Source: Deltaproteobacteria bacterium
Lineage (GTDB): Bacteria; Desulfobacterota; Syntrophobacteria; Syntrophobacterales; Thermodesulforhabdaceae
Reading direction: 5' to 3'
DNA length: 64,000 nt
Assembly (NCBI GenBank): GCA_019309115.1
Contig: JAFDGW010000009.1
Location: 1-64,000 of the forward strand
A program made the translations under genes and the position numbers. Below, piece after piece: positions 18,178 to 62,922 of this stretch; the first letter of the stretch is position 1, and every line of letters starts with the position of its first letter. Under the pieces are notes generated by a model. It did not search any database. It was given only the letters and a program-made list of their open reading frames with translations, and was not told where the DNA came from.

Positions 18178-18620
18178 AGGCAGGTGGAGTAGGCGGCATG
18201 ATCGCCCTGCACAATAGCAGGGAGGAAAGTCCGGGCTCCATAGGGCAGGGTGCTGGGTAACACCCAGTGGGGGCGACCCCAGGAAAGTGCCACAGAAAAC
18301 AGACCGCCCGCCACCTTCTTTAAGCTAACGCATGGGACATGTTACGGCGGATTGTAAGTAAACCGCTTAGTTAAAAGAAGGTGGTGGGTAAGGGTGAAAC
18401 GGTGAGGTAAGAGCTCACCAGGTCCTGCGGTGACGCAGGATGCTTGGCAAACCCCACCCGGAGCAAGACCAAATAGGGGAGCGCTTGAGGGTGGCCCGCC
18501 CGATGCTTCCGGGTAGGTCGCTAGATCCCTCTGGTAACAGGGGGACCAGATGAATGATCATGCCCCGGTGAGATTACCATCGGGAACAGAACCCGGCTTA
18601 TGACTTACTTCACCTGCCTT
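18178..18620 (+). ncRNA. rnpB: RNase P RNA, bacterial type A
   Basis: The catalytic RNA that matures tRNA 5' ends. Ends are set by the P1 helix: AGGCAGGTG at 18178-18186 pairs with CACCTGCCT at 18611-18619. Conserved blocks are present in order: GAGGAAAGTCCGGGCTCC near 18221-18240 (P4 5' strand), CAGAAAACAGACCGCC near 18292, GGGTGAAACGGTGAGGTAAGAG near 18392-18413 (split core), and CAGAACCCGGCTTA near 18587-18600 (P4 3' strand). Total length about 443 nt is at the long end for type A. It lies between the UDP-glucose dehydrogenase and ispD on the plus strand. Confidence 0.96.
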
Positions 18621-30251: not shown

Positions 30252-30766
30252 AAGAAAAGAACTCAGTTCAAGACGAAGCCATGATGAAACTTGCTCTGAA
30301 AATGGCGCTACAGGCCGAGCGGGCCGGTGAAGTGCCAGTCGGAGCGGTTATTGTTGACGAAAAAGGAAAAATTCTCGCCCTTGCTCATAATGAACCTATA
30401 TCATCCTGCGATCCTACAGCTCATGCTGAAATTGTGGCTATCCGCAAAGCGGCTCGAAGAGTTGGTAACTATAGGCTAACTGGATGCAGCTTGTATGTAA
30501 CCCTTGAACCCTGTGTTATGTGCTATGGCGCTGTGATCCATGCCAGAATTAAGCGCCTGGTATATGGCGCCAATGATCCAAAGGCGGGTGCTTTTAGTTC
30601 TGCCATTGACTTGACAAAACCCCTGTATTTTAATCATTATGTAGAGGTCAAAGGTGGAGTGCTCGCGGAAAAGGCAAGCGAAATGGTGCGAGCATTCTTC
30701 CGGGGAAAGCGGAGAGGTACCGAAGTGGTCGTAACGGGGTCGACTCGAAATCGACTTGTCCGGTGA
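30248..30766 (+). CDS. tadA: tRNA-specific adenosine deaminase
   Basis: Converts adenosine 34 of tRNA-Arg(ACG) to inosine. The 172 residues contain the zinc-deaminase signature: TAHAEIVAIRKA (His ligand and proton-shuttling Glu) and PCVMCYGAVIHARI (two Cys ligands), plus KAGAFSS. It starts at GTG 30248, overlapping the preceding gene by 4 bases. The last 18 codons run into the tRNA-Ser gene at 30711, so about 56 bases serve both as coding sequence and as tRNA; the tail after FFRGK is therefore probably not conserved. Confidence 0.95.
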   Translation: MKEKNSVQDEAMMKLALKMALQAERAGEVPVGAVIVDEKGKILALAHNEPISSCDPTAHAEIVAIRKAARRVGNYRLTGCSLYVTLEPCVMCYGAVIHARIKRLVYGANDPKAGAFSSAIDLTKPLYFNHYVEVKGGVLAEKASEMVRAFFRGKRRGTEVVVTGSTRNRLVR

Positions 30767-30806
30767 AGAGCCGGGCACGTGGGTTCGAATCCCACCCTCT
30801 CCGCCA
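30711..30806 (+). tRNA. tRNA-Ser, anticodon CGA
   Basis: Acceptor GGAGAGG at the 5' end pairs with CCTCTCC at 30796-30802, followed by an encoded GCCA. The anticodon stem is GTCGA/TCGAC with loop CTCGAAA, giving CGA, which reads UCG. A long variable arm (GTCCGG..CCGGGC region) and the T arm GTGGG-TTCGAAT-CCCAC confirm a class II serine tRNA. Its 5' half overlaps the tadA coding end. Confidence 0.95.
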
Positions 30807-30831
30807 GTACAAAAAAGACCTTTAACGACGC

Positions 30832-30924
30832 GGAGAGATGCCCGAGCGGTCGAAGGGGCACGACTGGAAATCGTGTGTACGCCCACAAGGCGTACCGAGG
30901 GTTCGAATCCCTCTCTCTCCGCCA
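30832..30924 (+). tRNA. tRNA-Ser, anticodon GGA
   Basis: Acceptor GGAGAGA pairs with TCTCTCC at 30914-30920, then encoded GCCA. The anticodon stem CACGA/TCGTG encloses CTGGAAA, giving GGA, which reads UCC and UCU. The long variable arm contains TACGCC..GGCGTA, and the T arm is GAGGG-TTCGAAT-CCCTC. It lies 25 bases after the first tRNA-Ser and 17 bases before dnaX, so all may share a transcript. Confidence 0.96.
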
Positions 30925-34778: not shown

Positions 34779-34941
34779 ATTTATACCTCCGGCGGCTTAT
34801 ATATCACCTTCTCCAATCATAATAAAACCAACTTGACTAAAAGAACAAGCTTGATAGAGTATATTGTAAGTAATTGTTACAAATTGAAGGCAATGAAGTC
34901 TGCCTGAACCGCCTGCGCCTCAATAACAGATGCGTTGGGCT

Positions 34942-34972
34942 GATGACTTCTACCTTGGGGTTAGAAGTCATC
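34942..34972 (+). repeat. Perfect 11-bp inverted repeat, first of three stacked hairpins
   Basis: GATGACTTCTA at 34942-34952 is exactly complementary to TAGAAGTCATC at 34962-34972, with a nine-base loop. There is no T-run. It is the first of three hairpins between the 49-aa gene and the dynamin-like gene. The strand is given as that of the downstream gene; the symmetry itself is strandless. Confidence 0.7.
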
Positions 34973-35100: not shown

Positions 35101-36870
35101 ATGCTGGAAAAATACCGTGAAAACCAGCAAGAATTGATTCAACTACTTCAAGACATGAAATCCATCCAAGTATCAGGTGTGGACAAAACCCTAACAGAAA
35201 AGCTTGATGAATTACGTGAAAAGCTCGAGAAAAACGCTTTTTATTTGGTCGTTCTCGGAGAATTCAAGCGAGGCAAAAGCACGCTCATTAACAGCCTGCT
35301 CAAAGATAAACTCCTTCCCACATCGGTAGTCCCTCTCACGTCGATCGTTACTATTATCCGCTGGGGTCCCCAAGAAGACATTGTTGTGCGCTTCAAAAAC
35401 GGCACCACAAAAACTATCACCAGGAAGGAACTTCCAGAATATGTAACCGAAAAAGGCAATCCCAACAATATAAAAGATGTTGATTTCGTTGAAATTTCCT
35501 ACCCTGCTGAAACCCTAAAAGGAGGAGTGCATCTTATAGATACTCCAGGTGTCGGGTCAATCTTTGAAAACAATACCCAGGTAACCTACGAATTTCTGCC
35601 GAAGGTAGACGCTGCTTTGTTTCTTTTCACCGTTGACCCTCCATTGAGTCAATCGGAACTTGAATTCCTCAGAGATGTCCGTCAGTACGTGCACAAGATA
35701 TTCTTTATTCAGAACAAGATCGATTACCTCGACGGAGAAGAGCTGGCGGAATCCTTGTCGTTTTCAAAGAAAACACTGGAAGAAGTGCTCCAGGACGGAA
35801 GTGTAAGCATTCAGCCCCTTTCGGCAAAACTCGCCCTTGAGGGACAGCTCAGCGGAGACAGCGACACTCTGCAACGAAGCAGATTGCCAGAACTGCAGGC
35901 TTTGCTTACTAATTTTCTTACCCGCGAGAAAGGCCGCATTCTCCTCCAATCAGCACTTCAATCGTCCAGAAAAGTCTTAAATGATATGGAATTTTCAGTG
36001 GAACTGGAACGCAAGGCAATTGAAACTCCATTGCGGGATCTGGAAACGAAGATAGAGCTCTTTAAAGACGAACTTGAAAGGATCCAGAGGGATAAAGAAG
36101 ATAACGGTTACTTCTTCGAAGCAGAAATAAAGCGCATAATGGATTACTTGGATAGACAACTGGAAAGGTTGCGCAAAACTGAACTTCCAAGGATGCTTGA
36201 AGAGTTGAAGCGTGAAGGTGAAGCCTTAAAACATTTGCCCGTGTCAGAATATGTGAAGAAAATGGAGGAAAAACTTAACTCAGGAATAGTCCAAACCTTT
36301 GACGATTGGATAATGGAACAAGAAAAAGCGCTGAACGAAGAATTTGCCCGTGTATCACGCCAGTACTCAGACAGAACTAACGACGTCATCAACAGACTCG
36401 TTCAAGCATCGGCAAAATTATTCGATATAGAACTAGAAACGGTAAAAACGGACGAAACCATAAGTTCTGACAGCCGCTTTTACTACCTGCTAGGAGATCC
36501 ACCTCGTTTCTTTGACATAGCCGGAGCTGTTGACTTTTTTTCGAAAAAGCTGTTGCCAAAAAGCCTGTCTCAGAAGAAAGTACTAAACGACCTGATGAAA
36601 AAACTGCCAGAGCGGATTGATGCTAATTGCGGGCGGGTTAGAGCAGATTTTATGCACCGAATACGCGAAAGTTTCTTCAACTTCAGATGGACGCTGAATT
36701 CAAAAATTGACGCAACGGCAGAAAGCATACAAAAAGCCCTGGAACAGGCTGTTGTTATGCAAAAGGAGGGGGCCGCCAAAAAGGACGAAAAGCTTAAGAA
36801 GCTTGCGGTCGAAGCGGCAAAAATCGCAGAGGTAAAACACAGGATTGAGGCATTACAGGCGCGTCTGTAG
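35101..36870 (+). CDS. Bacterial dynamin-like GTPase
   Basis: A 589-residue large GTPase. G1 is GEFKRGKST at residues 53-61, G2 is the Thr in VVPLTSIVT, G3 is DTPGVGS, and G4 is QNKID. The remaining 320 residues are long helices (for example residues about 300-390 and 540-589), fitting a dynamin stalk. I see no transmembrane hairpin, so membrane binding would be peripheral. The family remodels membranes under stress or phage attack; a single copy is found here although some genomes pair two. GGAGG precedes the ATG. The phosphatase gene follows after 7 bases. Confidence 0.88.
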   Translation: MLEKYRENQQELIQLLQDMKSIQVSGVDKTLTEKLDELREKLEKNAFYLVVLGEFKRGKSTLINSLLKDKLLPTSVVPLTSIVTIIRWGPQEDIVVRFKNGTTKTITRKELPEYVTEKGNPNNIKDVDFVEISYPAETLKGGVHLIDTPGVGSIFENNTQVTYEFLPKVDAALFLFTVDPPLSQSELEFLRDVRQYVHKIFFIQNKIDYLDGEELAESLSFSKKTLEEVLQDGSVSIQPLSAKLALEGQLSGDSDTLQRSRLPELQALLTNFLTREKGRILLQSALQSSRKVLNDMEFSVELERKAIETPLRDLETKIELFKDELERIQRDKEDNGYFFEAEIKRIMDYLDRQLERLRKTELPRMLEELKREGEALKHLPVSEYVKKMEEKLNSGIVQTFDDWIMEQEKALNEEFARVSRQYSDRTNDVINRLVQASAKLFDIELETVKTDETISSDSRFYYLLGDPPRFFDIAGAVDFFSKKLLPKSLSQKKVLNDLMKKLPERIDANCGRVRADFMHRIRESFFNFRWTLNSKIDATAESIQKALEQAVVMQKEGAAKKDEKLKKLAVEAAKIAEVKHRIEALQARL

Positions 36871-55286: not shown

Positions 55287-55697
55287 TTACTGCTTAAAAT
55301 AGCGCAAGATAGTATTTCTTTCGGAGGGTGTGAGTTTATCCCAATTTCTCAGGTAGTAACGAAGGCGCTTACGTTCGCTCTCAGAAAGGTTTTTCCACTG
55401 TTCGTAACGCCTCTTCAAAAGCTGCTGTTTTTCTGGAGGGAGCTGTTTGTAATGCTCATAACGCCTCCTCAATGATTCCCTTTCCTGAGGACTGAGTTTC
55501 TCCCACCTACGGTACTGATCTGAATTTTCAAAATATCGAAAAGCAAGGATCTGGGATTCCCCTTGTGTATAGACATAGTAATTCTCCAGGCAAAAGGAAA
55601 AACCTCCAGAACAAAACACTAACAACCAACACAAAATAATAACTGAAACCCGCGGGTTATAATCACTTCTACGAAAGAAATTCAGAATATATTTCAT
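55287..55697 (-). CDS. DUF3106-like repeat protein with membrane anchor
   Basis: A 136-residue protein with one hydrophobic segment at residues 15-36, probably a signal anchor or peptide. From residue 65 it consists of four units of about 18 residues (EKLSPQERESLRRRYEHY, KQLPPEKQQLLKRRYEQW, KNLSESERKRLRYYLRNW, DKLTPSERNTILRYF), the DUF3106 pattern. Units are basic and aromatic. I start at ATG 55697, which overlaps the anti-sigma gene by 29 bases. It is the last gene of the ECF operon; function unknown, perhaps a periplasmic partner of the anti-sigma factor. Confidence 0.8.
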   Translation of the reverse strand: MKYILNFFRRSDYNPRVSVIILCWLLVFCSGGFSFCLENYYVYTQGESQILAFRYFENSDQYRRWEKLSPQERESLRRRYEHYKQLPPEKQQLLKRRYEQWKNLSESERKRLRYYLRNWDKLTPSERNTILRYFKQ

Positions 55698-56157
55698 CAC
55701 CCCATGCCATCCTAAAGTGCTTTCTGCAGATTGAACTGTGTTCACCCGGCGTACCGTCAACAATCTGGACCAGTTTTTCCAGCACATCCAGATCTTTCAG
55801 AAATTCCATATTTTCAACAACTTCCTTCTCCTCCGGCGAAAGAGAAGGTTGGTGAAACAACTGAAGTCCTACGGCGAAGAGTAAAACCAGAATGATCATT
55901 GCCACCGCAGGCTTCAAGACACCGAAAAATCGAACAAAAAAACCACCATCTCTTTTGATGGCCTTCTGAGGTCCATGCGCAGGTATTATGTCAGGAAGAG
56001 TCTTAACCCGCAGATAATTAACCAAACCTTGAACTTCGGAATATTCTTTTTTGCATTCGTCACAGCTTTCCAGATGTGTTTTCAGCTCCTCTTCAGCACC
56101 GGCGTCAAGTTCGTCCAAAACACTTAGATATATGTCTTTACATCTTGGACATCTCAT
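55669..56157 (-). CDS. Zinc-finger anti-sigma factor (membrane-anchored)
   Basis: A 162-residue protein. The cytoplasmic zf-HC2-type anti-sigma motif H-x3-C-x2-C is at His28, Cys32 and Cys35 (THLESCDECKKEY), with an extra CPRC pair at residues 3-6. One membrane segment lies at about 81-101, leaving a 60-residue periplasmic tail with a His-Cys cluster (HSSICRKHFRM, 140-150) that could sense metal or thiols. Its ATG overlaps the sigma gene stop by 4 bases, the standard pairing for sigma and anti-sigma. Confidence 0.9.
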   Translation of the reverse strand: MRCPRCKDIYLSVLDELDAGAEEELKTHLESCDECKKEYSEVQGLVNYLRVKTLPDIIPAHGPQKAIKRDGGFFVRFFGVLKPAVAMIILVLLFAVGLQLFHQPSLSPEEKEVVENMEFLKDLDVLEKLVQIVDGTPGEHSSICRKHFRMAWGDEIYSEFLS

Positions 56158-56729
56158 AGTTCACTCCGACTTCCGAGTTCTTCCTTTAGCGTTCTAATAC
56201 CTCGAAATAAATGGCTTTTCACGGCACCTTCACTGATTCCAAGAATCTCAGCAACTTCCTTCATAGTCAGGCCTTCCATTACCTTAAGAGTGACCACCAG
56301 TCTTTGCTGCTTCGAAAGTTTATTCATTGCCTTCTTTATGCAACACTGTTCCTCCTTACGAGCCAGATTTTCTACCTGACTAGGCTCAATAAAGTTTTTG
56401 TTCGAACCGTTGCCGAACCACGCTTTCAAAAATTTCCTGAAGATCTTATCTTTTCGCCGTTGTTGCAAACACTCATTTATTAGAACTCTGTAAAGCCAGG
56501 TTCCAAGACTACATTTCCCTTCGAATGAATCAAGCCTGGTCATAAGCTTCAAGAACGTCTCCTGTGTAGCTTCAAAGGCGACTTCACGATCAAACCCACA
56601 CAGTCGAAAGGCGGCTCTGTAGATCTTTTCGTAATATCTGTTAACTAGCTCATTTCGGGCATTATTATCCCCTTTCTGAGCTTTCCTGATTAGATCAGCT
56701 TCAGCTTCCTTCACACAGCCGCCTTTCAA
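56154..56729 (-). CDS. ECF-family RNA polymerase sigma factor
   Basis: A 191-residue sigma-70-type factor. Region 2 covers about residues 25-90 (FRLCGFDREVAFEATQETFLKL then LGTWLYRVLINECLQQRRK) and region 4 about 130-185 (LSKQQRLVVTLKVMEGLTMKEVAEILGISEGAVKSHLFRG). It starts at a TTG with GAGGG 6 bases upstream; a GTG at 56714 is an alternative. It follows the His-rich gene by 18 bases and overlaps its anti-sigma gene, so it probably controls its own operon from the promoter at 57.2 kb. Confidence 0.93.
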   Translation of the reverse strand: MKGGCVKEAEADLIRKAQKGDNNARNELVNRYYEKIYRAAFRLCGFDREVAFEATQETFLKLMTRLDSFEGKCSLGTWLYRVLINECLQQRRKDKIFRKFLKAWFGNGSNKNFIEPSQVENLARKEEQCCIKKAMNKLSKQQRLVVTLKVMEGLTMKEVAEILGISEGAVKSHLFRGIRTLKEELGSRSEL

Positions 56730-56747
56730 AGAAAACCCTCTTTGTGG

Positions 56748-57149
56748 TTACCACGCATCTCTGAAACCGAAATTCAAATACCAGCCGTTCCAAGACGCCC
56801 TGTAGCGTGGGTATATCCTGTAAGAGCAATTATACCTATAAGCAGGCCGGCAGTAACACTTACAATAATAGCCACCATAGCAGGGACAACGGCGATGGTG
56901 TGGTCTGAACCGATGCCCGTGCCAGTAGTGATGATAATGGTGGTGTGGTTTGAACTGATGTCTGTGCCGGTAGTGATGATGAGCATAACGAGGCGGGACA
57001 TGGTGAACCCTGTGAAAACGATAATGATGACCTGAAACCCCCTTGACATTGACTCTCACCCTGTACACATCGCCCGCAAAAGCCAGCGACACTAACAGGT
57101 ACCCAAATCCTAAAGCCAGAACAAACACAAACGCTAGATAACGTTTCAT
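56748..57149 (-). CDS. Exported histidine-rich, cysteine-containing protein
   Basis: A 133-residue protein. Residues 1-25 are a signal peptide (hydrophobic run, cleavage probably after AFA). Residues 41-85 contain 19 histidines, many as HH and HHH with Tyr and Arg between them, and residues 88-108 hold six cysteines (CPCYGGYYCKCYC, then one more). This composition is expected to bind metals such as Ni, Zn or Cu, but that is inference. A very good GGAGGTGAG site precedes the ATG. It leads the sigma, anti-sigma, DUF3106 operon. Low-complexity sequence makes homology hard to judge. Confidence 0.82.
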   Translation of the reverse strand: MKRYLAFVFVLALGFGYLLVSLAFAGDVYRVRVNVKGVSGHHYRFHRVHHVPPRYAHHHYRHRHQFKPHHHYHHYWHGHRFRPHHRRCPCYGGYYCKCYCRPAYRYNCSYRIYPRYRASWNGWYLNFGFRDAW

Positions 57150-62847: not shown

Positions 62848-62922
62848 TGGCTGGGGTGGGAGGATTCGAACCTCCGAATGCGGGTTCCAAAGACCCGTGC
62901 CTTACCCCTTGGCGACACCCCA
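62848..62922 (-). tRNA. tRNA-Gln, anticodon TTG
   Basis: Read on the minus strand, acceptor TGGGGTG pairs with CACCCCA, followed by an encoded GCCA. The anticodon stem CGGGT/ACCCG encloses CTTTGGA, giving TTG, which reads CAA and CAG. The T arm is GGAGG-TTCGAAT-CCTCC. It lies between ispE and prs, an arrangement seen in other delta-proteobacteria. Confidence 0.96.

Follow-up and report, generated by a model that had tools for sequence, protein, structure and literature searches.

The four minus-strand genes described here, from a 64,000-nucleotide stretch of a Deltaproteobacteria bacterium genome (the window), read as a relative of the copper-responsive SigAb switch of Acinetobacter, and the first of them reads, here and in related genomes, as an exchangeable exported cargo. 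The genes and the promoter predicted to drive them are listed in Table 1.

Table 1. The operon and its predicted promoter (positions in the window)
Feature	Position	Strand	Basis
Promoter, predicted autoregulatory ECF, GTAAACGTTTTGCACCTCCTGTGCATCTAA	57186..57215	-	same place in relatives; sole 0-mismatch match genome-wide
First gene, exported 133-aa H/Y/R/C-rich protein, C-terminal tail GWYLNFGF	56748..57149	-	signal peptide and tail motif common to positional equivalents
ECF sigma factor	56154..56729	-	Pfam/NCBIfam; orthologues in order and phylum
Single-TM zinc-finger (ZAS) anti-sigma, conserved extracytoplasmic motif VVENMEFLKDLDVLEKLVQIVD	55669..56157	-	invariant C3, H28, C32, C35; RsiW/ChrR/RskA-type profile match
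Exported DUF3106 protein, AabB-type periplasmic partner	55287..55697	-	PF11304; relatives' profile finds AabB

A conserved operon and its proteins

The order of genes given by the sequence-only reading (exported His-rich protein, ECF sigma, zinc-finger anti-sigma, DUF3106 protein) is confirmed as one minus-strand run from 57149 to 55287. Its finer counts were also exact: the sigma and anti-sigma genes overlap by 4 bases, the anti-sigma and DUF3106 genes by 29, and the first protein carries 19 histidines in residues 41-85 and six cysteines after residue 85. Two starts have alternatives. The sigma gene is annotated from a TTG at 56729, but the GTG at 56714, which has a good ribosome site, is as likely a start; the DUF3106 frame also holds an ATG at 55787, and the MKYIL start at 55697 yields the form with a signal peptide. 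Upstream neighbours of the operon are presumably a methyltransferase and a membrane pyrophosphatase, and those downstream what we take to be a thiolase and a 3-hydroxyacyl-CoA dehydrogenase (names partly read from translations). No heavy-metal efflux genes were found among the operon's neighbours, in the window or in the loci of relatives. A single operon encoding a single predicted circuit is supported.

All four other genomes examined from the same family have the four genes in this order, as do seven genomes of a second family (G005, G007, G009, G011, G013, G017 and G019). Because the order recurs in eleven related genomes, it is not a matter of chance. The earlier reading had made the same neighbourhood in relatives its check, with loss of the His-rich gene from the sigma pair as the outcome that would tell against it; the gene stays with the pair. 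Across the phylum, DUF3106 scored above cut-off in 77 of 395 sampled Desulfobacterota genomes (~20%), and in 55 of the 60 loci fetched an ECF sigma gene lies just upstream in the same orientation, with a membrane anti-sigma encoded between sigma and DUF3106 in core loci. Judged by gene order, sigma, anti-sigma and DUF3106 form a phylum-wide core. A contig search of genomes with the window sigma returned distant ECFs only, and neither DUF3106 nor DUF3619 is named in the literature that we searched.

The sigma factor matches Pfam Sigma70_r2/r4 (E to 2e-17). Against Pfam zf-HC2 the anti-sigma falls below cut-off (E 0.003). Because C3, H28, C32 and C35 are invariant in the alignment with its relatives, and the resulting profile matches RsiW, RskA and ChrR chains (best PDB match 5wuq, E 4e-5), we assign the protein to the zinc type (ZAS, ASD class I), with an N-terminal H-x3-C-x2-C motif followed by one predicted TM helix. 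Its outer tail carries an acidic-leucine motif conserved phylum-wide, which takes the form ENLDLLExMDxIEKLVxxVD in the window's relatives, and no conserved metal ligands were found in this tail. HSSICRKH, to which the earlier reading had drawn attention, is present in the window's tail and absent from all relatives. SigW-RsiW of Bacillus subtilis shares the ZAS class of anti-sigma but has no DUF3106 partner and no exported first gene.

The DUF3106 protein matches PF11304 at about 50-51.4 bits (cut-off 24.3) and has about four helical repeats of 18 residues each, LSPxERxxLRxRYxxWKx. Its structure, predicted without an alignment, is a row of short helices at low-to-moderate confidence (pLDDT ~70), and comparison with the PDB gave no convincing relative (best E 0.0016). 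CnrYXH/NccYXH of Cupriavidus, a kind of system that the sequence-only reading mentioned, likewise has a single operon for an ECF sigma, a membrane anti-sigma and a helical protein that is exported, and two of ten DUF3106 members weakly match Metal_resist (PF13801; best E 0.0013). It is nevertheless very improbable that the operon is of this type with DUF3106 as a CnrX-like metal sensor. CnrX belongs to a different family with defined metal ligands, whereas none of the ten DUF3106 members passes as PF13801 and none of the invariant DUF3106 columns is His, Cys or Met, and on these two grounds we rejected a CnrX identity for DUF3106. The Cupriavidus systems are moreover tied to RND efflux genes, which the window operon lacks, and CnrY has no zinc finger, unlike the ASD-I type anti-sigma found here. 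No protein of the CnrX family scores above cut-off and the operon has no efflux genes beside it, so that the CnrH-type model does not hold.

The window has other features of note. A fluoride riboswitch aptamer (RF01734, 46.1 bits) at 34880-34959 (+) is followed by terminator-like hairpins and by an ORF (35101-36870) that we take, from its translation, to be a 589-aa dynamin-like GTPase, an unusual gene downstream of a fluoride riboswitch. RNase P RNA class A lies at 18186-18615 (+), two adjacent tRNA-Ser genes (cga, gga) at 30711-30924 (+), and tRNA-Gln at 62848-62922 (-).

Promoter and kinship with SigAb-AabA-AabB

Upstream of the first gene lies GTAAAC-NTTT-N14-ATCTAA, its -10 ending 36 nt before the ATG. 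Of 71 loci, 24 contain the pattern GTAAAC-N17-19-TC[TC][AC]A, with 2 matches in the reverse-complement and reversed sets and a shuffle mean of 0.24. It is placed 41-252 nt before sigma in core operons without a first gene, or just before the first gene. In each of the 15 loci that bear a cargo (14 with the pattern, and G013 with TCAGA as its -10), 30-71 nt separate the end of the -10 from the start codon of the cargo.

In the window genome the operon promoter is the only 0-mismatch site. Sites with up to two mismatches showed no clear excess (9 versus 6 in the control), and a looser pattern gave 4 matches versus 5. The three other looser-pattern sites and two of the 2-mismatch sites were inspected, and none was at promoter distance from a gene start. 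A wider regulon in this genome was rejected, the other sites being no commoner than in the control or inside genes, by a pattern search that could miss degenerate targets. With its promoter as the one perfect site in the genome, the operon probably regulates itself and is its own chief target. As a separate observation, locus L197 of the relative G002 (contig C95, near 16771) has a GTAAAC/TCTAA site that precedes, by ~340 bp, an ORF whose N terminus is signal-like and an HGY-rich exported ORF; it is a possible second sigma target in that relative.

In A. baumannii, SigAb is inhibited by AabA and AabB and induced by copper, knockdown raises sensitivity to copper and nickel, and three loci make up the direct regulon (PMC12153292). 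SigAb was called Acinetobacter-specific, from a gamma-proteobacterial comparison, in a paper whose text does not contain the term DUF (PMC12153292). By tblastn, a DUF3106 gene was matched in an Acinetobacter plasmid-collection record, within an operon of sigma, small protein and DUF3106. We equate this operon with SigAb-AabA-AabB because gene sizes, overlaps and the upstream GTCAAC-N17-CGTT agree (PMC12153292). AabB belongs to DUF3106, and the profile of the relatives' DUF3106 proteins finds it at 3e-14.

In a sigma tree (FastTree, ~190 residues, moderate deep support), SigAb groups with seven Desulfobacterota sigmas (loci L133, L135, L136, L137, L138, L139 and L140) with support of 1.00. The measured SigAb motif, GTCAAC-N16-CGTT (PMC12153292), is upstream in six of the seven loci, and all seven operons have DUF3106 together with short anti-sigmas that, like AabA, lack the zinc motif. 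Because of this grouping, with six members carrying the motif, we conclude from sequence comparison that the lineage of SigAb extends beyond Acinetobacter. The window sigma lies outside the clade and has GTAAAC-N18/19-TCTAA, not GTCAAC-N16/17-CGTT; we classify it as a sister type and not as a SigAb orthologue. About half of the surveyed loci have neither promoter type.

The window and Acinetobacter operons share overlapping genes for sigma, single-TM anti-sigma and exported DUF3106 in that order, and in both the ECF promoter has a T-run in its spacer and AAC in the -35. Autoregulation and a very small direct regulon, features of the Acinetobacter system, are predictions for the window operon. 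They differ in that AabA has no zinc finger, whereas the window anti-sigma has one, in the promoter (GTCAAC-N17-CGTT versus GTAAAC-N18/19-TCTAA), and in that Acinetobacter lacks an exported first-slot gene. The copper response is an Acinetobacter result (PMC12153292). The copper signal may not carry over, because the window sigma is in another subclade than SigAb, with a different promoter and with a zinc finger in its anti-sigma.

The exported first protein and the signal

No Pfam or NCBIfam match was found for the first protein, and it had two weak genome matches only. Since BLAST scores are unreliable at low complexity, its equivalents were identified from their position, their signal peptide, the promoter and the C-terminal tail, and the comparison of cargoes is based on position and short motifs. 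First proteins of the eleven relatives have 99-127 aa, a signal peptide and an H/Y/C/P/R-rich middle; the window protein and eight of these have a C-terminal tail of the GW(Y/S)xLxF type, and the remainder end in a related PGLTVIF. Histidines in the mature protein range from 2 (G001) to 19 (window), H+C never falls below 9 in the 13 sequences, and pI is 8.9-11.7. The steady H+C content is compatible with loose metal binding, although no proof of it. Structure prediction without an alignment left the protein mostly unstructured past the signal helix.

Beyond these two families the contents of the slot change. A third family (G046, G048) has a longer RQxRQ...H/Y-rich protein, and a fourth (G041, G043) a ferredoxin-like ORF upstream in place of the H/Y/C-rich gene. 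Between the GTAAAC-type promoter and sigma, the slot holds, besides the H/Y/C-rich and RQxRQ kinds, an RHDRREL-repeat protein in G247 and ~690-aa FecR + DUF6600 proteins in G157, G185 and G211 (domains tested on G185); RLDRRGDRID-repeat proteins (G181, G391) sit after a SigAb-type promoter. The two repeat types have no Cys and few His. The kinds of cargo are unrelated. All are exported and of low complexity, and where pI was computed it is high; metal ligands are not among the shared features. On this comparison the first gene is a variable exported slot with exchangeable cargo, and its product looks more like the output of the circuit than its sensor.

The sequence-only reading had cast the exported protein as the metal-binding component of a sensing circuit. 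That this protein is itself the sensor, signalling to the anti-sigma, would suit the 19 His and six Cys of the mature window protein, the high H+C retained in all relatives and the response of SigAb to copper (PMC12153292). We nonetheless consider it improbable: before the same core elsewhere the first gene is missing or swapped for unrelated proteins, some with no Cys and few His, histidine content varies from 2 to 19, and HSSICRKH is not conserved. Core operons without the first gene exist, with the promoter 41-252 nt before sigma; therefore the core must sense without the first protein.

The broader proposal of an envelope metal-sensing circuit stands in part. There is one operon, with an ECF-type promoter directly before the His-rich gene, and its nearest characterised relative is copper-responsive (PMC12153292); against this, HSSICRKH occurs in the window alone, no H, C or M is conserved in DUF3106, and the histidines drop from 19 to 2 in G001. 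By kinship with SigAb, metal sensing by the window circuit is plausible.

The same circuit might instead answer a general, RpoE-like signal of envelope damage, with the first protein as a basic aromatic coat or chaperone-like cargo that would bind an anionic surface or misfolded material, not metal. The properties shared by the cargo types (export, low complexity, pI of 8.9-11.7), the scarcity of Cys and His in the RLDRRGDRID and RHDRREL types, and a -10 TCTAA and -35 AAC that resemble E. coli sigma-E sites all point this way. RpoE-RseA-RseB of E. coli also has a membrane anti-sigma and a periplasmic partner in one operon and similar -10 bases, but the RpoE regulon is huge, RseB is not DUF3106, and there is no first-slot cargo. 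Since the H/Y/C-rich type keeps its H+C enrichment, and the closest relative to have been studied responds to copper and differs from RpoE (PMC12153292), we regard a damage signal as possible but on balance unlikely.

A proposed circuit and its wider meaning

We think it probable that the operon encodes an ECF sigma circuit of the same kind as SigAb-AabA-AabB and regulates itself. While the cell is at rest, the zinc-finger domain of the membrane anti-sigma would keep sigma bound. The exported DUF3106 protein would clamp the acidic outer tail of the anti-sigma and help to maintain the inhibition, a role already proposed for AabB acting on AabA. The putative clamp would join DUF3106 residues 35-136 to anti-sigma residues 101-162, with a candidate interface at VVENMEFLKDLDVLEKLV; this contact is carried over from Acinetobacter, where the contact between AabB and the AabA tail is a predicted model (PMC12153292). 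An envelope signal would loosen the complex of sigma, anti-sigma and DUF3106, and the freed sigma would transcribe its own operon. Copper or another metal is our leading guess for this signal, because SigAb answers to copper. The exported H/Y/C-rich protein, as the first product made, would be the effector of the circuit and probably binds metal or another envelope ligand, and the anti-sigma and DUF3106, made next, would switch the circuit off.

More tentatively, DUF3106-linked ECF operons may constitute one large, almost unstudied family of envelope switches, with copper-responsive SigAb as a branch, in which an exchangeable slot takes unrelated exported, basic, low-complexity proteins and the cargo completes a feedback loop, either because it competes for the acidic tail of the anti-sigma or because it removes the signal. 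DUF3106, a domain with no assigned function, gains a testable role through its link to AabB, a measured helper of an anti-sigma. The recurrence of the SigAb clade, operon and promoter motif in Desulfobacterota goes against the description of SigAb as Acinetobacter-specific. Through the exchangeable slot, the effectors of these switches can be picked out, among them a His/Tyr/Cys-rich protein open to purification and testing for metals.
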